DNA of 42,722 nucleotides, from positions 1 to 42,722 of the forward strand of contig CANFCB010000006.1 in assembly GCA_947445025.1 (NCBI GenBank). The letters are read 5' to 3'. This document shows, piece after piece, positions 4,858-34,655 of this stretch. Position numbers and translations under genes: made by a program. The stretch is from Myxococcales bacterium. GTDB lineage: Bacteria; Myxococcota; UBA727; JABDBI01. Positions within the stretch are counted from its first letter, which is position 1, and the number at the start of each line of letters is the position of its first letter. The notes under the pieces are model-generated. The model searched no databases. It was not told the origin of the DNA and saw only the letters and a list, made by a program, of their open reading frames with translations.

Positions 4858-5463
4858 ATGAGCCAACTTATTTTATTGAGACACGGTCAGTCGGTCTGGA
4901 ATGCGGAAAATCGCTTTACCGGATGGGTAGATATTGATTTAAGTGAGCAGGGAATTAAAGAGGCCAAGTTTGCAGGTCAAAAGTTGAAAGATTTCAAGAT
5001 TGACAAGGTTTTTACTTCCACTTTGAAAAGAGCCATTGAGACTGCCCAAATTGTTTTAGATATCATTGGGCAAAATGCGCTCCCTCTGACCTGCTCTCCT
5101 GCTTTAAATGAGCGTAATTACGGTGACTTGCAAGGCTTGAACAAAGATGAAATGCGTAGCAAATTCGGCACAGAACAAGTGCATATCTGGAGGCGCAGCT
5201 ATGATATCAGGCCCCCCAATGGTGAAAGCTTAAAGGACACCTGTGACCGGGTTTTACCTTATTATCAAAGCACCATATTGCCTTGCTTGCTTAAAAAAGA
5301 AACAGTCCTGGTGGCAGCTCATGGAAATTCGCTGCGCGGACTCATAAAAGAGCTGGAACATTTAAGTAATTTAGATGTGGTTTCCGTCGAAATACCGACG
5401 GGATCACCACTCGTTTATGAGATGGATCAACAAGGCCGGTTTTTGCATAAAACAATGTTATAA
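4858..5463 (+). CDS. gpmA: 2,3-bisphosphoglycerate-dependent phosphoglycerate mutase
   Basis: A glycolytic/gluconeogenic enzyme that interconverts 3- and 2-phosphoglycerate through a phosphohistidine. The [10 protein letters not shown] motif at 6-15 places the phospho-accepting histidine at residue 9. [13 protein letters not shown] (20-32), [12 protein letters not shown] (85-96, catalytic Glu near 86), RPPNGESL (118-125) and [13 protein letters not shown] (from 152, second histidine 155) complete the active site. At 201 residues it is the short form lacking the C-terminal extension of the ~250-residue E. coli enzyme, and such short forms are common. It is preceded by AAAGAG and lies between the LolA-like gene and clpP (23 bp), so read-through into clpPX is possible. 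Confidence 0.93.
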
Positions 5464-5486
5464 TTTCTCATCTTTTAGGAGCTTAT

Positions 5487-6089
5487 ATGACTTATTACCC
5501 ACCAACAGTGATCGAGCAAACCCCAAGAGGTGAGCGTGCCTACGATATTTGGTCACGCCTTTTAAAAGATCGTATCATTTTTTTGGGAACCGCTATTGAT
5601 GACCAAGTTGCCAATTCCATTGTGGCCCAATTGCTCTTTTTAGAAAGCGAAGATGCGGAAAAAGACATCACCATGTACATCAATTCTCCGGGCGGTTCGG
5701 TCTCTGCCGGATTGGCCATTTACGACGCTATGCTGTATGTACGTAGTGACGTTTCCACAGTTTGCGTTGGGCAATGCGCTTCTATGGGAGCCACACTTTT
5801 AGCTGCAGGCACCAAAGGCAAACGTCTTATTTTGCCGCACAGCCGCGTCATGATTCACCAGCCTTTAGGCGGCGCACAAGGGCAAGCCACTGATATCGAA
5901 ATCCAAGCACGTGAGATCATAAAAATTAAAGGCTTGCTCAACGAGATTTTAGCCAAGCACACAGGCAAACCTCTTAAGCAACTTGAAAAAGATACCGATC
6001 GCGATTTCTACTTAAGCGCAGAAGAAGCTATCGAGTATGGTCTTGTGGACAGAATGGTGACCAGGCATGAACCAGTAAAGGTGGGATAA
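5487..6089 (+). CDS. clpP: ATP-dependent Clp protease proteolytic subunit ClpP
   Basis: The 14-mer serine peptidase that degrades proteins fed to it by ClpX or ClpA-type unfoldases. The catalytic triad is visible: Ser99 in CASMGATLL, His124 in [12 protein letters not shown] and Asp173 in [15 protein letters not shown], the oxyanion-hole loop, is at 65-70. The 200-residue length is normal. The first ~10 residues form the usual processed or axial-loop N-terminus. A strong TAGGAG site lies 6 nt before the ATG. clpX begins only 3 bp after the stop, so protease and unfoldase subunits are co-expressed. The tig gene often found upstream is absent. Confidence 0.97.
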
Positions 6090-6092
6090 ACC

Positions 6093-7352
6093 ATGGTGGG
6101 TCGACGTGACGACAGCGCGCTTTTATGTTCTTTTTGTGGTAAATCACAAAAGGAAGTAAGAAAACTGGTAGCAGGGCCTTCTGTTTATATTTGCGAAGAG
6201 TGCATTGCGCTTTGCAAGGATATTATTGCTGAAGACTTAAGCATCAGCAATGTTTCTTCAGCAGATGAAATCAGCCTACTTAAACCATCAGAAATCAAGA
6301 GCATCCTCGATAAATACGTCGTAGGCCAAGAGCACGCCAAAAAAACCCTTTCGGTGGCAGTACACAACCACTACAAGCGCATCTTTAGCGAAGTTGACAC
6401 TTCAGACGTCGAATTACAAAAAAGTAACATCTTGCTCATTGGTCCGACCGGTTCTGGAAAAACCCTGCTTGCCCAAACCTTGGCGCGCATCTTGAAAGTA
6501 CCTTTCACCATTGCAGATGCAACCAGCTTGACCGAAGCCGGTTACGTCGGTGAAGACGTTGAAAACATGATTGTCAATTTGCTAAACGCAGCAGATGGAG
6601 ACATCAGCAAAGCGCAGCGCGGCATTATTTATATTGACGAAATCGATAAGATTACCCGAAAAGGTGAAAACGCCAGCATTACACGCGACGTTTCAGGCGA
6701 AGGCGTACAGCAGGCGTTGCTCAAATTGATTGAAGGCACCAATTGCAACGTTCCTCCTAAGGGTGGGCGCAAACATCCGCAGCAAGAATTTTTACAGGTA
6801 GACACCTCGCAAATTCTTTTCATATGCGGCGGTGCGTTCTCGGGACTGGAAAAAGTAATTGAGCAACGCGTAGGCCAAAAAACCATGGGTTTCGGGGCAA
6901 AAGTACGCGGAAAAAGCGACAAATCCCCAAGCGACTATTTCAAAGAAGTACAGCCTCAAGACCTGCTCAAATTTGGCCTTATCCCTGAATTGATTGGCCG
7001 ACTTCCTGTGACTGCGACCTTAGAAGATTTATCAGAAGAGACTTTGGTGCAGATTTTAACGGAACCCAAAAATGCACTGGCAAAACAATATAAAAGACTC
7101 ATGGAAATGGATGGCATTTCTTTGCGCTTTACCGATGAAGCCTTAAAAACAGTTGCAAAAGAAGCCTTAAAACGTAAAACGGGAGCCAGAGGTCTACGCA
7201 CCATTTTGGAAAATGCCATGCTCGACGTCATGTACGATACTCCCAGCCAAAAAGGGGTTCAAGAGATCGTCCTAAACGAACAGGCTGTTTTGAAAAAAGA
7301 AGCGCCTATGGTTGTGATGGGCAAACGAAGCAATAAGCCGAGTGTTGCTTAA
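6093..7352 (+). CDS. clpX: ATP-dependent Clp protease ATP-binding subunit ClpX
   Basis: A hexameric AAA+ unfoldase that threads tagged substrates into ClpP. The N-terminal zinc-binding domain has four cysteines (12, 15, 34, 37). Walker A is GPTGSGKT (117-124), the pore loop GYVGED is at 150-155, and Walker B is IIYIDEIDK (178-186). [18 protein letters not shown] and [10 protein letters not shown] (RKH loop) follow. QKTMGFG corresponds to the IGF loop that docks on ClpP. At 419 residues it is full length and intact. The ribosome-binding site lies inside the end of clpP (AAGGTGGG). No lon or hup gene follows directly; rsgA converges from the other strand. Confidence 0.97.
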
Positions 7353-10363: not shown

Positions 10364-10978
10364 TTACTTACCTGAGTAGTACTCAACGATCAATTGTTCG
10401 TTAACAATGACGGGAATGTCTTCTCGGGTAGGAGCCGTCACCATTCTAACTTGGTTGTCTTCTTGAATTGCCAAGTATGATGGCAGCGTTAGATTGTTGG
10501 GATCTTGGCGATTTTGTCCAATGGCTTCTTTCATTTTAGAAGCTTCGCGAGGTGCAATGACATCGCCAGCTTTCAATGAATATGAAGGAATGTCCACTTT
10601 ACGTCCATTGACAGTCACGTGACCGTGTCTTGCCATTTGGCGTGCAGCACTGATGCTTGGAGCATAACCGGCACGGAAAATGGCGCTGTCTAGGCGGCTT
10701 TCCAAAGCAGTAAGCAGGGTTAGTCCTGGATTTCCTTTAGCTCTAAATGCCTTTGCGACATAACGGCGCAATTGCTTTTCGCTCACACCGTAGTGAAAGC
10801 GTAGTTTTTGCTTTTCACGAAGACGCAAAGCATAATCTGATAGTTTTGCTCTTTTGGTAGGACCATGCTGTCCAGGTGGATACGGTCTGCGCAGATCAGG
10901 ATCTGTGCGCATTAAACCTGGCAAAGGGGTGCCGAGACGACGAATAATTTTAAGACGGGGTCCAAGGTAGCGAGCCAT
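10364..10978 (-). CDS. rpsD: 30S ribosomal protein S4 (uS4)
   Basis: A primary 16S rRNA-binding protein that nucleates assembly of the 30S body. In several bacteria S4 also represses translation of its own mRNA. It is full length (204 residues) with MARYLGPRLKIIRRLG at the start, the LRREKQKLRFHYGV-like helix, and an S4 RNA-binding domain (LESRLDSAIFRAGYAPSISAARQMARHGHVTVNGRKV, given here in outline) at about 90-155. It lacks the zinc-binding cysteines of some S4 paralogues. In many bacteria rpsD lies in the alpha operon with rpsM, rpsK and rpoA. Here it is a single gene with its own leader and terminator. GAGGAAAA precedes the ATG. Confidence 0.96.
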   Translation of the reverse strand: MARYLGPRLKIIRRLGTPLPGLMRTDPDLRRPYPPGQHGPTKRAKLSDYALRLREKQKLRFHYGVSEKQLRRYVAKAFRAKGNPGLTLLTALESRLDSAIFRAGYAPSISAARQMARHGHVTVNGRKVDIPSYSLKAGDVIAPREASKMKEAIGQNRQDPNNLTLPSYLAIQEDNQVRMVTAPTREDIPVIVNEQLIVEYYSGK

Positions 10979-11044
10979 TATTTTCCTCTTACTTTATCAC
11001 TCATAGCCCTCATGCGGACTACAAGTCATCTAATGGATAAAGCC

Positions 11045-11067
11045 AAAAAGCTTGAAGATTATCAAGC
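11045..11067 (-). promoter_or_regulatory. Terminator-like hairpin in the rpsD leader (candidate attenuator)
   Basis: On the minus strand, GCTTGA-TAATCT-TCAAGC (11067-11050) is followed at once by TTTTT (11049-11045). It lies ~70 nt upstream of the rpsD start and just downstream of the candidate promoter at 11089-11117. No minus-strand gene upstream needs a terminator here, so an attenuator or S4-responsive leader element is a reasonable inference. Confidence 0.4.
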
Positions 11068-11088
11068 CAGGTTATTTTAAGTGGATGG

Positions 11089-11117
11089 TACATAACTTTC
11101 AATTCGGCAGTGGTCAA
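11089..11117 (-). promoter_or_regulatory. Candidate sigma-70 promoter for rpsD
   Basis: On the minus strand, TTGACC (11117-11112) and TATGTA (11094-11089) are separated by 17 bp. Transcription would begin near 11082 and give a leader of about 100 nt. The -10 box matches the consensus only in its first three bases. Confidence 0.4.
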
Positions 11118-11250
11118 CCTCTGATCTTGTCAATTCAGAGAACCAAGCAATTCTATTGTGTTTATCTAATATTTTTGCTAGATCTTGGCCACTTTGGTAT
11201 TTATTGATATTACCTATTGCTAGCTAATATTTATTAATGAGGTTTTAATC

Positions 11251-11655
11251 ATGTCATCAGCACAAGATGTCCCAAGTCCAAGCGAGCCTAAAGCTGGAAA
11301 AAACACAAAACCCACTCGCCATTTGCGTGCGCCCATTGAGATTCGCGTCGAGATTACCGTAGGTCCTCAATCATTTACTGCGACATCACGCAATTTAGCC
11401 CTCGGCGGCGTTAGTTTTGAAACCCTGGAAAAACTAAGCGTGAACGACAGGGTGAATGTTCTGCTTTATATACCTGTCAAAAAAGAGCTTGAGCTACTGA
11501 AAGCGGCGGCTGAGATTGTCTGGATCGAAGACCAAAATGGATCCTACATGATCGGTGCCGCATTTAGAAAGTTTGCCCCGGGCGATCAAAAACGCTTGAG
11601 GGAATGGTTACTTGAATGTGTCCGTGCCCAAAAAGAAGGCCGACCTATGGCGTAA
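11251..11655 (+). CDS. PilZ-domain protein
   Basis: A 134-residue single-domain PilZ protein. PilZ domains typically sense cyclic di-GMP and adjust motility, surface or secretion functions. After a polar N-terminal tail (1-21), the beta-barrel starts at RHLRAPIEIRV and continues through TSRNLALGGVSFET, RVNVLLYIPV and AAEIVWIEDQNGSYMIGAAFRKFAPGDQKRLREWL. Both ligand motifs are imperfect: RxxR (23-26) instead of RxxxR, and NLALGG (48-53), in which Ala50 replaces the usual Ser of [D/N]xSxxG. Binding may be weak or absent, as in some PilZ paralogues. GAGG lies 8 nt before the ATG. It converges on the acyl-CoA dehydrogenase gene. Confidence 0.85.
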   Translation: MSSAQDVPSPSEPKAGKNTKPTRHLRAPIEIRVEITVGPQSFTATSRNLALGGVSFETLEKLSVNDRVNVLLYIPVKKELELLKAAAEIVWIEDQNGSYMIGAAFRKFAPGDQKRLREWLLECVRAQKEGRPMA

Positions 11656-11669
11656 TGAATGCCCTCTAC

Positions 11670-13863: not shown

Positions 13864-13888
13864 AACATATATTATGCAGGGAGATCAA

Positions 13889-15148
13889 ATGGATATAAAA
13901 ATTGAACCGCACACAGATCGTATACCGGAACTTGACCAAGAACCAGGACGACCGTTAGAACCTCCTCCTAAAGGCCTTCCCAATACAGACACTGCTCCTC
14001 GGCACATCGATACTGACAAAGACACGAAGGAAGCACTATCTGCTTTAAATAGCTCGCCGCCCCATGATAAAATAATCATGCATTTTAGAAGCATTATAGC
14101 AGATATCAACAAAGCCGAGCGTCCCATAACTAATCTCGATGACATAAAAACTGCTGTCAACAAGGCTAAGTCTTCTGTTTCTGATGGCGTGTGGAATAAT
14201 ATTAAAAAATGGTTTAGCAAATCACACCGAGACCTGTCCGATAATGTTAACAACGAACATAGCGAGATATTTAAAGCAATTGGCACTCACGAGGTACACA
14301 TGAAGCAAGCTCAGGTTGCTACCGCGCTGGCAGCTGAAAATGCGGGTCTCAAACGACAGCTGGCTGAACAACAAAAAGCGCACAGTGACATGGCAGCAGA
14401 ACGTACCAGGAACCAGCTCGATTATAATAGTCAAGCAGCTGGTGATTCCACGCAACTAAATGAGGCTCGCCAGGCGCTAGAAGCAAGTCAAACAAAAAAT
14501 GATGATCTCAAGCGACAACTAGAAGAGGCCAACCAAACGCTTCTCACTACTTCTCAACTAGAAAAAAATTACGATGCACTGAAAGAAAAGCTCGTTGTTC
14601 AAGAAGCAAGTATGAAATTGCTAGAACAAAAATTGGCAAATCCCAATCCTGAGTCTTCAAGAATAGATCAACCAGAGCAAACAGAAATAGATGTACAGCT
14701 GACAGAGTTGCAAAAAGAATTAAAGGACATAAAAGCAACACTAGCTACCGTTCGAAAAAATCTAACAACTGCCCAGGATGACAATAATACTCTTTCAGCT
14801 CTTAATGTTGAACTTGATATCAAAAATTCTGCTATGACAGTAAAATCCGTCAAAAATAGCGCAGAAAGAGAAAGACTCACGAAAGAAGTTGAAAAATTGG
14901 CAGCTGAATTAAGTGACAATGAAAACGTACTAAAAGAGTCAGATGCAGGTAATACGCATAGACTAGATCAAAATACGGAGCAGTTACTGAAAACCCATGA
15001 GGAAGCCATAGCGACTCTAAAACAACAAAATGCGCTTGATGTGCAAACAGCAAAAACCGAAGCCATGGAAACATTAATTGCTGGGCTGCAAAAAAAGCTC
15101 TCACAAGAATTGCTGGCTGAGGTTCAGAAAGCGTTAGCGAAGACGTGA
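13889..15148 (+). CDS. Coiled-coil-rich protein of unknown function (paralogue 1)
   Basis: I do not recognise this 419-residue protein. I start it at the ATG at 13889, 5 nt after AGGGAG; an in-frame ATG at 13874 lies too close to the predicted transcription start. Residues 1-45 are Pro- and Asp-rich and probably disordered. A conserved block SSVSDGVWNNIKKWFSKSH (95-113) follows, then a long predicted coiled coil (~130-390) rich in Gln, Lys, Glu and Leu (LKRQLAEQQ, LKRQLEEAN, LTELQKELKDI). The C-terminus is an amphipathic helix. There is no signal peptide or membrane segment. The next gene shares the block, the C-terminal helix and the promoter. An inverted repeat (15133-15139/15150-15156) spans the stop codon. 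Function unknown; a structural or secreted effector-like role is conjecture. Confidence 0.75.
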   Translation: MDIKIEPHTDRIPELDQEPGRPLEPPPKGLPNTDTAPRHIDTDKDTKEALSALNSSPPHDKIIMHFRSIIADINKAERPITNLDDIKTAVNKAKSSVSDGVWNNIKKWFSKSHRDLSDNVNNEHSEIFKAIGTHEVHMKQAQVATALAAENAGLKRQLAEQQKAHSDMAAERTRNQLDYNSQAAGDSTQLNEARQALEASQTKNDDLKRQLEEANQTLLTTSQLEKNYDALKEKLVVQEASMKLLEQKLANPNPESSRIDQPEQTEIDVQLTELQKELKDIKATLATVRKNLTTAQDDNNTLSALNVELDIKNSAMTVKSVKNSAERERLTKEVEKLAAELSDNENVLKESDAGNTHRLDQNTEQLLKTHEEAIATLKQQNALDVQTAKTEAMETLIAGLQKKLSQELLAEVQKALAKT

Positions 15149-15182
15149 ACGCTAACTCTTAATCAAAATAATAGCCACATGC

Positions 15183-15212
15183 TTGACAGTGCTAGAACAA
15201 TCCAGTTACAAT
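15183..15212 (+). promoter_or_regulatory. Promoter of the second coiled-coil gene
   Basis: Perfect -35 TTGACA (15183-15188) and TACAAT (15207-15212) with 18-bp spacing, giving a leader of ~25 nt before the ATG at 15244. The GCTTGACAG context and the downstream AATATAA and GCAGG are shared with the promoter at 13834-13863. A TATAAT at 15213-15218 would be spaced too far (24 bp). Confidence 0.75.
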
Positions 15213-15243
15213 ATAATATACACATAAAGCAGGAGCAGGAACA

Positions 15244-15975
15244 ATGGAACACTTAGTTGACAAAAAAGTGAATGCCCAACACCCGGATTTCGCTGGCGAC
15301 AAATCTCTAAAACCAGCAGGGAAGCCTCCTACTGCGAACAGCGCTGATATGTTTATCCATACTGATACCAACGCCAAGCCGAACACGAAAGAGACAGTAG
15401 CACTTTTAAAAAGTGCTGACACCGCAGAGATCGACAACCATTTAAACGATATTTTAACTGCACTAAAATCCACTGATCAGGATACCGATCTCACTAAGCA
15501 TATCAGCAAGATACAGGAAGCCGCAGAGAACGCGAGGTCTTCTGTTTCTGATGGCGTTTGGAATAATGTTAAAAAATGGATTAGCCCATCACACCTAGCT
15601 TTACACAATAGAGTCAACGATACTTTTAATAAGATAGCAGGTGCAGTTGATAGTTACCCAGCACTTAAAGCAAGTAGAGATAAGATAGCACAACTGACTG
15701 CTGATAGCATCAGACAACAGGCCAGCCTAGAAGCTGCCCAGAAAGAAGCCCAGCAGAACATAAAAACGCTAACTGATACAAACAAATGGCATGAAGCAAA
15801 CTCGGTGCAGCTAAATAAAGACCTGCAAGACGCAAAGTCTGTCGTCAGATCACAATTAGCAACTGGTGTAGGCAACGCAGAAAATTTACTGAATGTGCTG
15901 GGAAAAAATTTACCAGCAAAATTATTCAATGAAGTTTTATCCGAGTTAGATAAAAAAAAGAAAGATAAAAAATAA
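15244..15975 (+). CDS. Coiled-coil protein of unknown function (paralogue 2)
   Basis: A 243-residue paralogue of the preceding gene. A polar, Pro/Asp-rich N-terminus (1-50) is followed by a helical stretch. Then comes the shared block SSVSDGVWNNVKKWISPSH (99-117), a shorter predicted coiled coil (~145-205) and a C-terminal helix (NAENLLNVLGKNLPAKLFNE) that aligns with the end of paralogue 1. It ends in a very lysine-rich tail. The block is nearly identical at DNA level too: a 21-bp run at 15537-15557 equals 14170-14190. There is no signal peptide or transmembrane helix. A doubled ribosome-binding site, AGGAGCAGGA, precedes the ATG. It ends 1 bp from the convergent propeller-like gene. No known function. 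Confidence 0.75.
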   Translation: MEHLVDKKVNAQHPDFAGDKSLKPAGKPPTANSADMFIHTDTNAKPNTKETVALLKSADTAEIDNHLNDILTALKSTDQDTDLTKHISKIQEAAENARSSVSDGVWNNVKKWISPSHLALHNRVNDTFNKIAGAVDSYPALKASRDKIAQLTADSIRQQASLEAAQKEAQQNIKTLTDTNKWHEANSVQLNKDLQDAKSVVRSQLATGVGNAENLLNVLGKNLPAKLFNEVLSELDKKKKDKK

Positions 15976-15976
15976 C

Positions 15977-18148
15977 CTAATTTTTCACGGCAATATCGGT
16001 GCGACTGCTATTACCGTTTTCGTCAAAGGCGCGACAACTCACTGAATTAAATTGCGGCTTTTGTGCTATGATCCAATCATAGCTTTCAACGAGCTCATCG
16101 GTTATGCCGTCGACTGGATCCACCGGCATCCAAGTAGCGCCGTCAACTGCACACTGCACTAAAACCAATGGCAATTTGGCCTGCACCATAAAAGCAACAC
16201 GGGTTGCTTTTGTTGACCATTTGGCCTCGGTTTTGGTGAAAATTGGCGAGCTATTGGCAATCTCAAAAACATCGGACCATTGTTCATCTTCTAAAACACG
16301 GGCCGGGCCATTGCTTAACAAGTCATCGACGCTCACGCGCACACGATATCGCCCGTCTGCCATTTTGTAAGAATCAAAAGTAACCGAAGGGTCTTCAGAC
16401 CAAGGCTTGAGTAGCACCAGAGAGCCCGTATCTTTGCCTGCTAAATGCTCCAGGTAAAATTGGTAACGCAAAGCATCGGCGTCGATATCTTCCGCGTAAG
16501 CATATAACGATCGCATACCAGCTTCTTTGCTTAAAATAGCTTGTGGCGGCTGCAGCACAAACGGTGCGTAAATTGTCGCACGACCATCACTGGCAAAGGC
16601 TGCTTGGTCCAAACTCACAGCTTTAGGTGCTTCGCTTTCTGCTTTTTGCAAAACCAGCTTATTGGAAACCGGCAACACGCGCACCGACATAATTTGCGGC
16701 GCCCGGTTGCTCGGCAAATATGTCATACGGACCTGCTCAATGCTTATTTTTGTTTTTTGCAAAAGCAACTGCACCTGATTGTAACGGGCCAAAGGCAATC
16801 CGGAAAAATGTCCTTTAGAATTGCGCGCGACAAACGGACTCCAGGTTTGGTCGGGAATAAGGGTGTTACCAACGCGCACCAACACTTCCAATCCAGCAGA
16901 CAATTGCGACTGCCCATTGACCAGGACCGATCCAAATTGTGCCAGATAACCCATATCAAAAACCGGCGACAAGTAGTTTCCCTGCCCTGCGACCAGCGAC
17001 TCATCCCAGGCAAATATTTCTCCCAAAGCTGACATGCCTAAGTAGCATTGATCCTTTGCGTTGCGCACGATAGTCGATATCTCAGGATGCGATTTTTGAC
17101 CGGCAAGAATATCAACATCGCCACCACCATCCACACTCAAACGTAGCAGAACACCGAGCGGACTTGTGCCCAATAATAAATATTGTTCATTCAAGGTCAG
17201 AGCCATGGCCAAGACACCGTCACGGGTAGATTGCCATAATGTTTTCACTTCACCGTTTTTTTCAATGCGCACAACTTGTGACGATTTGATTTCCCGCAGA
17301 TCTGGCGGTGGATTTGCCGGCGTGACTGGCACTACTTTTTCAGAATTGGCAGCAACATCCAAATCGCGAAAAAGGCTGCTATCATCATCGACCAAAGCTG
17401 CGAACAGTCGTCCTTTTTTGTCTTTTATAATAGCAGTTACTTCGCCACTGGCCTGATAAATTGCAAAAACATGGTTGTTGTCTAAACGATAGATTGTGCC
17501 TTTTGCGGCGCTTCCAAAATAAATGGCTTGGCTGGCTGAATCAACATAGACAGAACGCAAATGGCTTTCTTCTAAGCTTGCTAAGATTTCTATTTTTTTA
17601 CTTTTTTGCGATAAACGAAGCAGTCTCCCCGTCTCTCCGCCTCCGACTAAATATAAATTATCACCCATGGCGGCGGCGCCTAACAACAAATGCACTTCGC
17701 TCACAGGTACAAATACAGGTTTAGTTTTTCCGTTTGCTTTGACAAAGTAAACGCCGCTATCGGGCGCAACCACAACCGCAATATCTCCATTATCCATAGC
17801 TACAATCGCTGTGATTAATGGTTTATCTGTTTCAAAGATTACCCGGGGTGCTTGGCCTTTTTGAATTTGCCAAATCTTTGCCGGAGTTGCCGTCGCAGCA
17901 TAAATTATGTCTTTGCCGTCGACAGCCAAAGCCAGAACAGGGCCAGACAAGGCAGCACCGATACCATTTGCTTTTGGACCCAGCTGCAATAGGCCTTTGC
18001 CACTTAAAGTCACGCCGTCAAATTCTCCCATGGCGAAAAGTGAATTGCCTTGCCAAGTAAAACTTTCCGGCTGGCTGGCCAACATCTCACCACTAAAACA
18101 AACCGATAATGCCAATGCATACACAATTTTTGAAAAAATTCGCTTCAT
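15977..18148 (-). CDS. Secreted protein with beta-propeller-like N-terminal half
   Basis: A 723-residue protein with a Sec signal peptide (residues 1-24, MKRIFSKIV...MLASQ). About 35-375 is a series of ~40-residue units with strand patterns and phrases such as VLALAVDGKDIIYAATA, GDNLYLVGGGETGRLLRLS and QAIYFGSAAKGTIYRLD, typical of a WD40/NHL-like beta-propeller. The C-terminal half is beta-rich, with immunoglobulin-like phrases (DADALRYQFYLEH, MADGRYRVRVSVDDLLSNGP). It probably acts in the periplasm or at the cell surface. Its start codon overlaps the end of the S55 peptidase-like gene by 4 nt, so the two are translationally coupled and may work together. No catalytic motif was seen. Confidence 0.75.
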   Translation of the reverse strand: MKRIFSKIVYALALSVCFSGEMLASQPESFTWQGNSLFAMGEFDGVTLSGKGLLQLGPKANGIGAALSGPVLALAVDGKDIIYAATATPAKIWQIQKGQAPRVIFETDKPLITAIVAMDNGDIAVVVAPDSGVYFVKANGKTKPVFVPVSEVHLLLGAAAMGDNLYLVGGGETGRLLRLSQKSKKIEILASLEESHLRSVYVDSASQAIYFGSAAKGTIYRLDNNHVFAIYQASGEVTAIIKDKKGRLFAALVDDDSSLFRDLDVAANSEKVVPVTPANPPPDLREIKSSQVVRIEKNGEVKTLWQSTRDGVLAMALTLNEQYLLLGTSPLGVLLRLSVDGGGDVDILAGQKSHPEISTIVRNAKDQCYLGMSALGEIFAWDESLVAGQGNYLSPVFDMGYLAQFGSVLVNGQSQLSAGLEVLVRVGNTLIPDQTWSPFVARNSKGHFSGLPLARYNQVQLLLQKTKISIEQVRMTYLPSNRAPQIMSVRVLPVSNKLVLQKAESEAPKAVSLDQAAFASDGRATIYAPFVLQPPQAILSKEAGMRSLYAYAEDIDADALRYQFYLEHLAGKDTGSLVLLKPWSEDPSVTFDSYKMADGRYRVRVSVDDLLSNGPARVLEDEQWSDVFEIANSSPIFTKTEAKWSTKATRVAFMVQAKLPLVLVQCAVDGATWMPVDPVDGITDELVESYDWIIAQKPQFNSVSCRAFDENGNSSRTDIAVKN

Positions 18149-19935
18149 GGTTTCGCCTCATTTTTTACGGTGATTGTTCCAGTTACATTGCCACGCATAA
18201 CAAAGTCCATATCCACACAGGCAAGCCGCACTGCACTCAAAGCTAAGTTCGCACCTAGCGGAACAGCGATTCTCGAGGTCAACTGTTTAAGACTAGGCGG
18301 TAGGTTAACCAAGGGAAAACCATTAATCCGCTTCGACACAAAAGCTTGTTGCAAATAAATGCAAACCTGGGTTTCTTTGGGCTCAGTTTGTATCTGCAAA
18401 AACAGTGTTTCATAATTTTGTGGCACGGCACTGATGCCCGCTTCTTCTTCAAAGTTAACTGCCAAAGCACGATCCAAAACCGAGAACTGGTATTGCCCTT
18501 GCGTCAAGCCCATAGGAATACCTATCTCAACGAACTTACTCTGAATTTGTGCAGACCAAGGCCGAAATGAAAAATTCAACTTGGCTTTTTTGCCAGCGTT
18601 AAAATCACCGCCCATGTCCACCGCCACTAAGAGCGCGGTGCTGACTTGCTTTTTATAAAGCAGATCCACCTCGATATTATCCAGTTCCAGTTGTTTAAAA
18701 TTGTGCAAACTCAAAGCTGAAATCGCCTCTAAAAAAACGCGCGCTACCTCGCCCTCTAGGGGAACGGCATATTCAGATATTTCTCGCTGCAAAGTGATTT
18801 TTCGACCATCAGCGAAGACTAATTTGATTTGCATCACATAGCTACCGCCCAGCTCTTTGTCCGTGCGCATCGCCAAGCTATTTCCTAGCGCAAAAGCGGC
18901 AAACAAGGGCACATCTCTTGCATGATCGGCAATTTTGTAATGCCAACTTTTTTGCCCCAACTTAATTTGTAGAGCAACGGTCCGTGCTTTTTGATGCATG
19001 ACCCCGGCAATTCCTACATTTCGATCATCAGACAAAGCTCCTATGATTTCCAGGGGCTGACCCAACTTGAAAGCTTCATTTTCAGAAAAAACCGTGGTCA
19101 CAATTTCCGCACTAGCAACTGGCATGCTGCTATTACCTGTCTCTAAAAAGGGATGACCAAATGCTGAAAAAAGATCTTTTTTAACCCAGGTCACTGTCCC
19201 TATTGCTGCCATGGTCATGGGACCTTCTACCAGCACAACCGCTATGGGACCGCCTGCATATAACAAATTTTGTGCAGGTTCAGACTTTAGCTTCAAGCCA
19301 CCTGCCCCAGGCATAAAAAATGCGTAACCCCGGCTTTCAAAGCGAGGCTTAAATTGCTCGGCTATTTGCGCAGAAAGACCAGTCGCAACCAAAGGCAAAG
19401 CAATGGGTTTTATTAAATTAGCAGCGATGTGATTTTGGGCAACTTGCAATCCGGCCATAGACTTTAGCCTATTGACGTCGGTGGGGCTTGCCATAGCAGA
19501 CAACATATATTGAATCGGCGTAATCCCAGCAATGGCCCCTTCTGTCAAAAAGCTGCCAATGCCATAGGAAACTGCGCCCAAAAGTTTGCCCTTCAAGTAA
19601 GCAGGACTGCCGCTCATGCCAGCGACGATACCGGATTTTTGAAACCTGGCCTCGGTAAAACGCACAATAATTAGGTCCTGCCCCGCCCCTAATTGTCCAC
19701 GCATCAGACCCAAAACTTCAAATTGAAAAGGTTCCAATCCTTTTTGACTGGAAAACACCGAATAGCCAGTTCCCTGCATGCCAATTTTCAACTCATCGAG
19801 GGGAAACAAGGGAGGATCTTCAGCCAAGATTTGCCAAGGTACAGCCTTCGCTAAATTGTCGGCCGCTAAAGCAGATGCCCATGAAAAAAATATTACATAT
19901 AACCAGTGAATATGCCGTGCAAATATGCTATTCAT
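18145..19935 (-). CDS. Exported SpoIVB-like (S55) serine-protease-family protein
   Basis: A 596-residue protein with an N-terminal signal sequence (about 1-24, ending ALAA). The S55-type motif GMSGSP (106-111, candidate nucleophile Ser108) is followed by AYLKGKLLGAVSYG and GITPIQYML (137-145). A second conserved segment, GTVTWVKKDLFSAFGHPF (246-263), carries the candidate catalytic His261. In Bacillus SpoIVB the GH motif precedes GMSGSP; here the order is reversed, as I recall for other exported deltaproteobacterial members. The ~300-residue C-terminal part is beta-rich. SpoIVB cleaves a membrane-complex protein to activate a sigma-factor protease; the target here is unknown. First gene of a two-gene unit, divergent from speA (48 bp between). 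Confidence 0.8.
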   Translation of the reverse strand: MNSIFARHIHWLYVIFFSWASALAADNLAKAVPWQILAEDPPLFPLDELKIGMQGTGYSVFSSQKGLEPFQFEVLGLMRGQLGAGQDLIIVRFTEARFQKSGIVAGMSGSPAYLKGKLLGAVSYGIGSFLTEGAIAGITPIQYMLSAMASPTDVNRLKSMAGLQVAQNHIAANLIKPIALPLVATGLSAQIAEQFKPRFESRGYAFFMPGAGGLKLKSEPAQNLLYAGGPIAVVLVEGPMTMAAIGTVTWVKKDLFSAFGHPFLETGNSSMPVASAEIVTTVFSENEAFKLGQPLEIIGALSDDRNVGIAGVMHQKARTVALQIKLGQKSWHYKIADHARDVPLFAAFALGNSLAMRTDKELGGSYVMQIKLVFADGRKITLQREISEYAVPLEGEVARVFLEAISALSLHNFKQLELDNIEVDLLYKKQVSTALLVAVDMGGDFNAGKKAKLNFSFRPWSAQIQSKFVEIGIPMGLTQGQYQFSVLDRALAVNFEEEAGISAVPQNYETLFLQIQTEPKETQVCIYLQQAFVSKRINGFPLVNLPPSLKQLTSRIAVPLGANLALSAVRLACVDMDFVMRGNVTGTITVKNEAKP

Positions 19936-19983: not shown

Positions 19984-21900
19984 ATGAAAAATAATTGGTC
20001 TATACAGGACAGTTTTGATTTATACCTTATTTCCAGATGGGGAAATCCTTATTTCTCGATTAACGCCAAAGGTAATCTGGCTTGCGAGCCTACTGGCGAA
20101 AAAAATCTGCCTGGTATCGATCTAAAAGAATTGGTCGACGATCTTTGTCGTCGTGGCATACAGGCTCCACTTTTGATTCGTTTTAACGACATTTTAAGCT
20201 CACGCGTGCGCATTATTGCCGAGAGCTTTCGTAACAGCATTAAAGAATATGGCTATAAAGGCCAATACAAAAGCGTCATGCCAATCAAGGTAAATCAACA
20301 ACGTCACGTGGTTGAAGAATTAGTTAGGCACGGACGCGCTTATCAATTGGGACTTGAAGCTGGTTCTAAGCCGGAGCTGCTCGTGGCCATGGCTTTGCTG
20401 GAAGATTCTGATTCACTTTTAATTTGCAATGGCTACAAAGACGGCGAATATATTGAAACGGCATTAGACGCACAACGTCTAGGACTTTTGCCTTTTTTAG
20501 TACTTGATCGTTTCGACGAACTACCGCAGATTATTGCGATTTCTAAACGCATGAAGCTAAAACCACACATCGGCGTCAGAGCAAAATTGTCAAGTAAAGG
20601 CAAGGGACGATGGGAAGACTCTTCCGGAGATCGCAGCAAATTCGGCTTATCAGCGCGAGAAATTGTACGCGCCGTTGATTTGCTTAAAAAAGAAGACATG
20701 CTCGACTGTCTAGAACTTTTACATTTCCATATTGGATCTCAAATTACCTCAATTCGCGCCGTCAAAAGTGCGACCAGAGAAGCCACACATCTTTACTGTA
20801 ATTTGCGACGCATGGGATGCAGTAATTTGGGCTACATGGATATAGGTGGCGGCTTAGCTGTCGATTATGATGGCAGCCAAACCGATTTCCATTCTTCCAT
20901 GAACTACTCGACGCAAGAGTATGCCAACGACATCATTTCGGTCACACAAGATATTTGCGATACTAATTCAGAACCACATCCCATGATTGTTTCTGAATCA
21001 GGACGTGCTTTGGTTGCGCACCACGCCATGCTGGTATTCAATGTGCTTGGGGTAAGCGAACTCACCAGTTCAATCAGCAAAGAATTTATTGCCCCCGATG
21101 ACGACGATCATGGAATTTTGCATACCATGTGGGAAGCCTATCAATCGGTCAGCAAAAAAAGTTTTCAAGAAGCTTACAACGACGCTCAAGTCGCTAAAGA
21201 AGAAAGCGTAACTCTTTTCAGTCACGGCGTTATTGACTTGGAAACTAAGGCTAGAGTTGACGATTTATATTGGGCAACTTGTCAACGTATTCAAAGCACC
21301 ATTACCTCGGAAACTTATATCCCTGAGGATCTGCAAGGACTTGATAAGCACTTAAGTGATACTTATTATTGCAACTTTTCCATTTTCCAATCGCTGCCAG
21401 ATTCATGGGCTGTTGGTCATCTTTTTCCGATTGCGCCGCTGCATCGTTTGGAAGAAGAGCCAACCAGAGAAGCTATTTTAGCAGATCTCACCTGCGACTC
21501 CGACGGAAAACTTGACCAATTTATTGACTTAAGAGACGTTAAAAGCACCATTCGTTTGCATAAACCAAACGGAAAACCTTACTACCTCGGCGCCTTCTTG
21601 GTTGGTGCTTATCAAGAAATTTTGGGCGATTTGCACAATCTTTTTGGTGATACCAACGCTGTGCATGTTTCCGCAGGACCCGATGGTAGCTATCGACTTG
21701 ATCACGTCGTCCAGGGCGATACCGTTGCCGAAGTTTTGGGCTATGTGGAATATGATCGCTTAGACTTGGTTCGACGTATTCGCAATTTTGCTGAAGCAGC
21801 AGTGCGAAACAATCGCATGACTTTTGAAGAGTCAGCTCAACTTATGCGACGCTACGAAGACGGATTGTCAGGTTATACTTACTTGGAAGATATTGACTAG
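19984..21900 (+). CDS. speA: Biosynthetic arginine decarboxylase
   Basis: A PLP-dependent fold-III decarboxylase that converts arginine to agmatine, the first step of one putrescine/spermidine route. It is 638 residues, the usual size. The barrel domain has the PLP lysine in SVMPIKVNQQ (Lys102), then LEAGSKPELL, HFHIGSQ near 247-253 and GGGLAVDYDGS. The C-terminal region has LTCDSDGKLDQFID, with the conserved Cys-Asp pair, and GAYQEILGDLHNLFGD. GGCAGGAG lies 6 nt before the ATG. No agmatinase (speB) or agmatine deiminase gene is nearby. It converges on the DksA-like gene 7 bp away. Confidence 0.96.
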   Translation: MKNNWSIQDSFDLYLISRWGNPYFSINAKGNLACEPTGEKNLPGIDLKELVDDLCRRGIQAPLLIRFNDILSSRVRIIAESFRNSIKEYGYKGQYKSVMPIKVNQQRHVVEELVRHGRAYQLGLEAGSKPELLVAMALLEDSDSLLICNGYKDGEYIETALDAQRLGLLPFLVLDRFDELPQIIAISKRMKLKPHIGVRAKLSSKGKGRWEDSSGDRSKFGLSAREIVRAVDLLKKEDMLDCLELLHFHIGSQITSIRAVKSATREATHLYCNLRRMGCSNLGYMDIGGGLAVDYDGSQTDFHSSMNYSTQEYANDIISVTQDICDTNSEPHPMIVSESGRALVAHHAMLVFNVLGVSELTSSISKEFIAPDDDDHGILHTMWEAYQSVSKKSFQEAYNDAQVAKEESVTLFSHGVIDLETKARVDDLYWATCQRIQSTITSETYIPEDLQGLDKHLSDTYYCNFSIFQSLPDSWAVGHLFPIAPLHRLEEEPTREAILADLTCDSDGKLDQFIDLRDVKSTIRLHKPNGKPYYLGAFLVGAYQEILGDLHNLFGDTNAVHVSAGPDGSYRLDHVVQGDTVAEVLGYVEYDRLDLVRRIRNFAEAAVRNNRMTFEESAQLMRRYEDGLSGYTYLEDID

Positions 21901-33963: not shown

Positions 33964-34299
33964 TTAGCCTACTACGCGTACTCGTTTGTTCGGAGCGGTT
34001 GTGGCTGGAAATGTAACCCGAATCTGAGTCAGGCCTCCTAAGTGCTGCAGGTAATTTAAAAGCTTTTCGATGCTCATCTTAGAAATTTTTCCATTTAGGA
34101 GCTCGCTCACGCGAGGCTGTGGCTGGTCTAGTACTTTTTCAAGATCCCGCTGCTTGTAGCCCCTCTTTTCGACAACGTCCAAGATTGAATTAAGGAGGGC
34201 GGCCTTTATCTCCAATGCTTCACTCTCGGCTTCATCGAAACCCAGATCTTTGAAAACACTCCCTGTTGTGACGTGACTTGCAGTATTTTTCTTTTTCAT
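33964..34299 (-). CDS. higA: HigA-type helix-turn-helix antitoxin
   Basis: A 111-residue Xre/HTH_37-type antitoxin. It neutralises the toxin encoded just upstream and probably represses the operon. The helix-turn-helix core is GYKQRDLEKVLDQPQPRVSELLNGKISKMSIEKLLNYLQHLG (outlined; about residues 47-89), with the RVSELLNGK recognition helix. An N-terminal helical segment (FDEAESEALEIKAALLNSI) is of the kind that contacts the toxin. It is the second gene of the operon, overlapping the toxin stop by 4 nt (ATGA). The toxin-first order is the HigBA pattern. The symbol is by family, not by orthology. Confidence 0.85.
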   Translation of the reverse strand: MKKKNTASHVTTGSVFKDLGFDEAESEALEIKAALLNSILDVVEKRGYKQRDLEKVLDQPQPRVSELLNGKISKMSIEKLLNYLQHLGGLTQIRVTFPATTAPNKRVRVVG

Positions 34300-34655
34300 T
34301 TTTTTGCCTCCCGAATTCTCACTAAGACCCTTTTCAATCTAATTTCAGCGGTTTCTAGGTCGTTCCTACTTGTCTTTGCGCTCTGCTTTTCGAACGAATG
34401 GAGCACATAGACAGTGTCCTCTATTTTCGCGAGATAGATGACGCGATACCAAGCTCTTTCATCCGCTTCTTTAAGTTCAAAAACCCCAGATCCTATGCTC
34501 GTCATTGGTTTTGAGTTTGCTGGCAGCCTCCCCTGTTGAAGAAGATCAAGAGCAAAACCCAAATCTTTTCGTACGTCGTCTGGAAACTCTCGCAGAATAT
34601 CCAGGGAATCACCCTCCCAAGCGATCTTTGCCCTTTTCTTGCTTGCTCGCTGCAT
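34296..34655 (-). CDS. higB: RelE/HigB-type toxin (phage Gp49-like family)
   Basis: A 119-residue toxin of the RelE/ParE superfamily, Gp49-like branch. Members usually cleave mRNA on the ribosome. The N-terminal lead is WEGDSLDILREFPDDVRKDLGFALDLLQQG. The core strand region is GSGVFELKEADERAWYRVIYLA, then DTVYVLHSFEKQSAKTSRNDLETAEIRLKRVL, with the family-typical F-x-K and A-x-x-R positions. It starts at an ATG with GGGGG 6 nt upstream. It lies antisense to the dcw genes. Base use seems a little different from the neighbours, with longer runs of AT-poor codons in the core, but I have not measured this. It appears intact. Confidence 0.85.
   Translation of the reverse strand: MQRASKKRAKIAWEGDSLDILREFPDDVRKDLGFALDLLQQGRLPANSKPMTSIGSGVFELKEADERAWYRVIYLAKIEDTVYVLHSFEKQSAKTSRNDLETAEIRLKRVLVRIREAKK

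Follow-up and report, generated by a model that had tools for sequence, protein, structure and literature searches.

A predicted circularly permuted S55-type serine protease and its near-obligate β-propeller partner, encoded as a gene pair in three bacterial phyla

Two overlapping genes in a 42,722-nucleotide stretch of DNA from a Myxococcales bacterium (assembly GCA_947445025.1, contig CANFCB010000006.1; the whole stretch is called the window here) encode a relative of the sporulation protease SpoIVB and a β-propeller protein. The protease-like gene (18145–19935, minus strand) specifies 596 residues with an N-terminal hydrophobic export segment at residues 5–28, and the partner gene (15977–18148, minus strand) specifies 723 residues with an N-terminal hydrophobic helix at residues 2–22. 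The stop of the protease-like gene and the start of the partner gene share the four nucleotides ATGA (18145–18148, minus strand; junction bases aaaccATGAag). It is somewhat probable that the pair constitutes an exported two-subunit serine protease, with a permuted S55 catalytic subunit and a dedicated propeller partner. The first gene would encode the catalytic subunit, a permuted SpoIVB-type protease of chymotrypsin fold with a predicted His261-Asp304-Ser108 triad, which would lack a PDZ domain of the kind that regulates SpoIVB. The second would encode a dedicated seven-bladed propeller with Ig-like domains that may recognize or position the substrate, or control the protease, in trans. The two proteins would be translated together, and their place of action would be extracytoplasmic, with an envelope protein or an incoming substrate as target. 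Catalysis, a physical complex, the division of labour, the compartment and the substrate are parts of this scheme that we infer.

The window protease matches the Pfam family PF05580 (E 6.5e-10; 39.8 bits, against a curated cut-off of 25) and is the only such match in its host assembly, which is incomplete (1.09 Mb, 73% complete). All 22 members of the protease family that were scanned match PF05580 at E 0.01. In the unaltered window protein the best stretch is residues 66–124 on profile positions 133–192, which is the Ser part. The first-pass annotation of this DNA had given the extent of the two-gene unit, the 723-residue size of the partner and the stop/start overlap, and had placed GMSGSP (Ser108) before GHPF (His261), the reverse of the order in SpoIVB; each of these observations was confirmed, with the motif positions exact. 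Peptidase S55 is defined with the His part before the Ser part, and here the chain is reversed and becomes collinear with that family only once re-ordered. The score against the SpoIVB equivalog TIGR02860 is 32.6 bits, below the curated 305.25. By profile comparison, then, homology to S55 is clear, yet the protein falls outside the definition of SpoIVB by score, and its order is permuted.

When a profile of 81 relatives in native order is compared with the SpoIVB structure 9lnf, it aligns as two pieces in reversed order, of which the Ser part, profile positions 33–113, falls on chain residues 220–300 (35.6 bits; E 1.2e-8 for the chain). The order was then exchanged in 16 relatives by placing residues 227–337 ahead of residues 40–149. 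The re-ordered profile gives a single collinear match to 9lnf chain residues 119–304 (E 3.4e-12). PF05580 is matched by each of the 16 re-ordered proteins, and the re-ordered window protein covers positions 13–192 of the 210 in that profile as a single alignment (E 6.6e-12). Circular permutation predicts such collinearity once the halves are exchanged, and on these alignments the reversed order of the halves is a real circular permutation. The Ser half (residues 40–149; 19489–19818, minus strand) is the homologue of the C-terminal portion of SpoIVB S55 and resembles a trypsin- or HtrA-like Ser barrel, and the His half (residues 227–337; 18925–19257, minus strand) is homologous to the N-terminal part. 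Coevolution analysis of 198 sequences (effective number 149) places the top couplings mostly inside each half; the strongest coupling between halves, 147–308, ranks eighth among all pairs and lies near Asp304. This signal between the halves is suggestive only.

Ser108 (predicted nucleophile; codon 19612–19614, minus strand), His261 (predicted general base; codon 19153–19155, minus strand) and Asp304 (in a DR motif, predicted third triad residue; codon 19024–19026, minus strand) are invariant in 118 of 118, 119 of 119 and 119 of 119 covering relatives, respectively, of a set not selected by motif. This set comprises 120 rows including the window protein, drawn from whole-protein or profile searches, in which two fragments lack the Ser position and one lacks the other two positions. 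The same residues are found in 80 of 80 rows obtained by pattern search, where the invariance of Ser108 is partly by construction, given that the pattern contained GMSGSP. The conserved Ser, His and Asp of the PA clan are therefore all present. The invariance of Asp304, like the general absence of a PDZ domain described below, was not mentioned in the earlier annotation. The spacing of His261 and Asp304 is 43 residues; the corresponding spacing in chymotrypsin is 45. In an ungapped hand alignment, anchored from G299 to G311 on GDINRNSPFGIFG, Asp304 faces an Asn in 9lnf, at a place where the HMMER path has gaps.

A non-proteolytic scaffold or chaperone that retains a protease fold is quite improbable, since residues that do not vary among 118 to 119 unselected relatives are hard to explain without catalysis. 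In its favour, SpoIVB itself has an atypical triad: in the passages cited here from Zhu et al. (PMC12502668), the crystal structure leaves the third catalytic residue unclear, with Asp363 about 24 Å from His236 and Thr393 proposed instead. Of 200 rows, the 198 that cover the position of Thr393 all have Ala, Ser or Gly there, and therefore the Thr393 proposal does not extend to the permuted family.

The pairing is conserved well beyond the window, as the first-pass annotation had asked to be checked. Among 80 loci, a propeller gene lies downstream on the same strand in 57, of which 45 are within 150 nt and 12 are further away, by up to 1743 nt; in several of the more distant pairs an alcohol dehydrogenase gene lies in between. 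At one locus (L058) the propeller gene is nearby on the other strand, and at 22 no propeller gene is present in the examined stretch, in several cases due to a contig end. Nineteen of those 22 genomes have a family propeller elsewhere, with best matches at E 2.3e-206 or better, and no family propeller was found in the other three genomes (G195, G208 and G210). In G025 the partner is on another contig. Among 100 further loci, for which stretches were chosen around known matches, the propeller is downstream in 83, absent from the examined stretch in 13 and on the opposite strand in none; four more overlap by more than 300 nt, which is read as over-long open reading frame starts.

The pairing across genomes is the principal new finding. 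In Myxococcota the protease is found in 27 of 195 genomes. A propeller search at E 0.001 gave weak matches in 149 of the 195, given that propellers are common, and a cut-off of 60 bits was set after a gap in best matches between 97.3 and 51.9 bits had been seen; above it, the propeller is present in 25 of the 27 genomes with the protease and in none of the 168 others. In Acidobacteriota (phylum of G206) the protease is found in 139 of 149 genomes and the propeller, at E 1e-25, also in 139 of 149, with the same ten negatives. In Planctomycetota (phylum of G366) the same 38 of 149 genomes carry both. Across the three phyla, 202 genomes have both genes, two have the protease only, none has the propeller only and 289 have neither; these are not 493 independent events, given the relatedness of the genomes and the incompleteness of many. 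Co-occurrence of the protease and propeller is near-obligate. The distribution given in the first-pass annotation, in deltaproteobacteria, is too narrow: the family also occurs in almost every sampled genome of Acidobacteriota and, patchily, in Planctomycetota.

These patterns bear on operon hitch-hiking, in which neighbours are inherited and lost together with no joint function. Most copies are adjacent, as that account would have it. On the other hand, the partner is kept in the 19 of 22 genomes that do not show it as a neighbour and on the other contig of G025, and the remaining neighbours vary by lineage. Duplicates also stay paired: seven genomes (G235, G287, G308, G326, G344, G353 and G451) have two protease copies on different contigs, and in all seven a same-strand propeller match follows each protease; a contig end truncates some of the copies. 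Hitch-hiking is therefore the least credible of the explanations considered, with only a very slight chance of being correct.

The recurrence of the pair across phyla suggests more than chance. In gene trees built from the window pair and 55 others, both proteins follow phyla and look alike by eye among the branches listed, in which branches are long and deep joins unsure. In four Myxococcota families (f1, f5, f7 and f14) the pair is present in some genomes and jointly absent in others. Joint absences, unlinked pairs and the patchy pattern in Planctomycetota argue against one simple event. A broader proposal, given slightly less than an even chance, is that this is an undescribed and ancient extracytoplasmic protease system of two genes, in which a naturally permuted chymotrypsin-fold protease exchanged its built-in PDZ regulator for an obligate propeller encoded beside it; the pair would be among the core genes of Acidobacteriota and, in Myxococcota and Planctomycetota, would have been gained or lost together.

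The partner had been described in the first-pass annotation as a secreted, propeller-like protein, and its model agrees with that description (pLDDT 88.6, pTM 0.78). Residues 49–384 (16997–18004, minus strand) are modelled as a seven-bladed β-propeller, with VIA matches to residues 49–382 at Z 34 and 2.1 Å over 280–283 aligned residues; the seven-bladed structures matched include the designer protein 7big_A and 5yzv_B, each at Z 33.8. No Pfam family matches the window propeller protein alone at E 0.01 (Reg_prop, E 0.061), and Reg_prop is matched in 46 of 55 family members. A β-sandwich region follows (residues 385–500; 16649–16996, minus strand) with invariant R425, G427, W436 and Q458. Ig/FN3-like strands, assigned from the model and from Pfam matches within the family, occupy the C-terminus (residues 536–723; 15980–16543, minus strand); Big_13 is matched in 13 of the 55 members, Big_7 in 12 and fn3 in three. 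By a crude screen, an N-terminal hydrophobic segment is present in 193 of 199 proteases and in 151 of 158 propellers, and a lipobox-like pattern in 16 of the 199 proteases and 13 of the 158 propellers. Given that hydrophobic N-terminal segments are usual and lipobox-like patterns few, both proteins are probably soluble and exported. In two genomes of the window's family (G007 and G003), a short propeller gene, for 409 and 496 residues respectively, lies close by on the opposite strand, which suggests that the propeller and the next domain may be the needed part. The shortened, relocated propeller genes lie at 10438–11667 (minus strand) of L032 and 5394–6884 (plus strand) of L033, from two reduced relatives that retain the protease.

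SpoIVB is controlled by its PDZ domain, according to the passages cited from PMC12502668. No Pfam PDZ domain matches the window protease, and PDZ_2 matches one of 22 family members (E 0.0091), although a divergent PDZ could escape such a scan. A hidden PDZ domain as a general feature of the permuted family was considered and rejected, with one weak match in 22 members. Because a PDZ domain is generally undetected with Pfam and the propeller partner is near-obligate, the propeller may be what supplies recognition or control in trans.

SpoIVB, whose role lies in the sigma-K checkpoint of sporulation, triggers regulated intramembrane proteolysis. The idea in the first-pass annotation of a periplasmic protease or chaperone-like partner that senses or processes envelope material is conjectural, and its reading as a whole is partly supported. 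The permuted protease could likewise be a signalling protease that makes the first cut in such a cascade, with the propeller as a restraining sensor. Homology to SpoIVB is consistent with this role, as is the Foldseek list for the propeller protein, whose top-ranked matches are the sensor domains of the hybrid two-component systems BT4673 and BT4663. Signalling is nevertheless unlikely, given that PDZ is generally undetected and that near-universality in Acidobacteriota is no less compatible with a housekeeping role. It would also have gained from a conserved third gene, but none of the neighbours of 101 loci is universal and the clusters are lineage-bound. The neighbour clusters include a VWA-domain gene (32 loci), an alcohol dehydrogenase (15), an FtsX/MacB-type permease (15) and a mixed ABC-ATPase group (14), with TsaC and RpiB neighbours mostly in Brocadiales and a speA neighbour in Myxococcota.

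Within the permease cluster, the proteins of L101 and L130 are MacB-like by eye. Four proteins were checked as LolCE, those of L062 and L106 from this cluster and of L141 and L147 from other regions; all four match TIGR02212, three of them without reaching the curated cut-off, and neither of the two scanned LolD proteins reaches its own. In Acidobacteriota, lolCE is often found after the propeller gene, with lolD beyond it in several loci, and lolCE follows the propeller in six of 14 regions in which the propeller gene is remote from that of the protease. A lolCE-type gene was seen directly after the propeller in L062, L141, L142, L143, L144, L147 and L151, all from Acidobacteriota, even with no protease nearby. 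Adjacency of propeller and lolCE is a lead toward lipoprotein traffic, and is seen in Acidobacteriota only. The lead would fit a protease that matures one particular class of exported proteins, such as lipoproteins or surface proteins. The restriction to one phylum, the scarcity of lipobox-like patterns in both proteins and the scores below curated cut-offs all count against maturation, which has about the same small likelihood as signalling.

Structural comparison of the protease ranks HtrA/Deg enzymes highest for the Ser half. The AlphaFold2 model of the whole protein has a mean pLDDT of 87.5 and a pTM of 0.86, and VIA matches to it cover mainly residues 30–304. Residues 29–157 superpose at Z 7–8 on the Ser barrels of 9lnf and HtrA-type proteases; residues 29–149 fall on 9lnf 302–416 (Z 7.3, 112 residues, 3.5 Å). 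No single match takes in both barrels together, which is what a permuted chain would lead one to expect. An envelope quality-control protease in the manner of HtrA/DegP, with the propeller as substrate adaptor, would agree with the high rank of HtrA/Deg proteases in that comparison and with the wide occurrence in Acidobacteriota. In contrast, the match covers one barrel, neither the Trypsin nor the PDZ family matches the window protease where HtrA/Deg has a trypsin-like domain and then PDZ, and a dedicated partner protein is unlike the general HtrA scheme. Quality control is thus rather unlikely, even if it is less so than signalling or maturation.

Several results weigh against the favoured reading, an exported two-subunit protease with a permuted S55 catalytic subunit. 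In native order, the His part (profile 240–284 on 9lnf chain 119–167) scores 1.0 bit. A VIA Z of about 7–8 is in the range where a match may mean only a common arrangement of the chain, and a Foldseek search of the PDB with the whole protease model gave a best E of 3.7e-3, with none of 676 matches at E 0.001 or below. The third residue is disputed in the only SpoIVB structure found, and the triad predicted by homology is unsure for that reason. Finally, in two Myxococcota genomes the protease is present but no full propeller was found: G005, which is 85% complete, and G031, in which the contig ends soon after the protease (L050).

The protease has a further C-terminal region (residues 338–596; 18148–18924, minus strand) that combines helices with strands, most of it modelled with confidence. 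Around the pair, speA is the neighbour on the protease side, divergent, at 19984. On the propeller side are two adjoining genes for long helix-rich proteins of 424 and 243 residues (13874–15975, plus strand), with no Pfam match above cut-off for either, in a region of strong A-over-T skew (0.306 at 14001–16000). An Rfam scan of the window gave no match. Elsewhere in the window, a Gp49-like (PF05973) and HTH_37 gene pair with a 4-nt overlap (33964–34655, minus strand) sits inside a cell-wall and division cluster, on the opposite strand between murG-like and murC-like genes, in an arrangement that we take to be that of a HigBA-type toxin-antitoxin pair. Two genomes of the window's family are small, G002 (about 0.3 Mb, 87% complete) and G004 (about 0.5 Mb, 91% complete), where other members are 1.1–1.8 Mb; either the genomes of this myxobacterial family have been strongly reduced, or the binning or the completeness estimates have produced an artefact.

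The SpoIVB peptidase (S55) has been described as widely detected in acidobacteria (PMC8841776, in the passage cited), such that the presence of the protease there is known at the level of annotation. No report of the permutation or of the protease-propeller pairing was found among the titles and abstract openings of the literature searched, which scarcely covered subscription papers and bioRxiv, and a term search of PMC6524800 and PMC3434108 found no mention of permutation, S55 or SpoIVB. No function for S55-like proteins in this motif order was found in that literature either, in agreement with the first-pass annotation. What is new here is the permuted order and the two-gene partnership, both undescribed in the literature searched. 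If the favoured reading is correct, most genomes of Acidobacteriota, a phylum abundant in soil, carry a protease pair that is unstudied and could be tested in cultivated strains. The permuted family would also be a natural test of the tolerance of the chymotrypsin-type fold to circular permutation. The invariant Asp304 bears on the third residue of SpoIVB, in that it points to a chymotrypsin-like place and not to Thr393, the residue put forward in the cited part of PMC12502668.

Three known systems invite comparison. Both halves of the permuted protease are homologous to those of SpoIVB (MEROPS S55, PF05580, 9lnf), with the same GMSGSP and GH motifs, where 9lnf is an active-site mutant that reads GMAGAP in place of GMSGSP. 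Unlike SpoIVB, the permuted protease has its halves in opposite order, an extra C-terminal region of about 260 residues, no detected PDZ in 21 of 22 members, an invariant Asp304 (Asn in 9lnf by hand alignment) and a near-obligate propeller partner. HtrA/Deg proteases, of the PA clan, share the Ser barrel on which the Ser half superposes, whereas the permuted family is generally without PDZ, has the permuted order and has a Pfam sequence match to S55 only. Periplasmic propellers of the WD40-like or Reg_prop type, such as the sensor domains of BT4673 and BT4663, share the seven-bladed fold and Reg_prop repeats of the partner; in contrast to those sensors, the partner is a free-standing, exported protein with no kinase part that appears dedicated to one protease.

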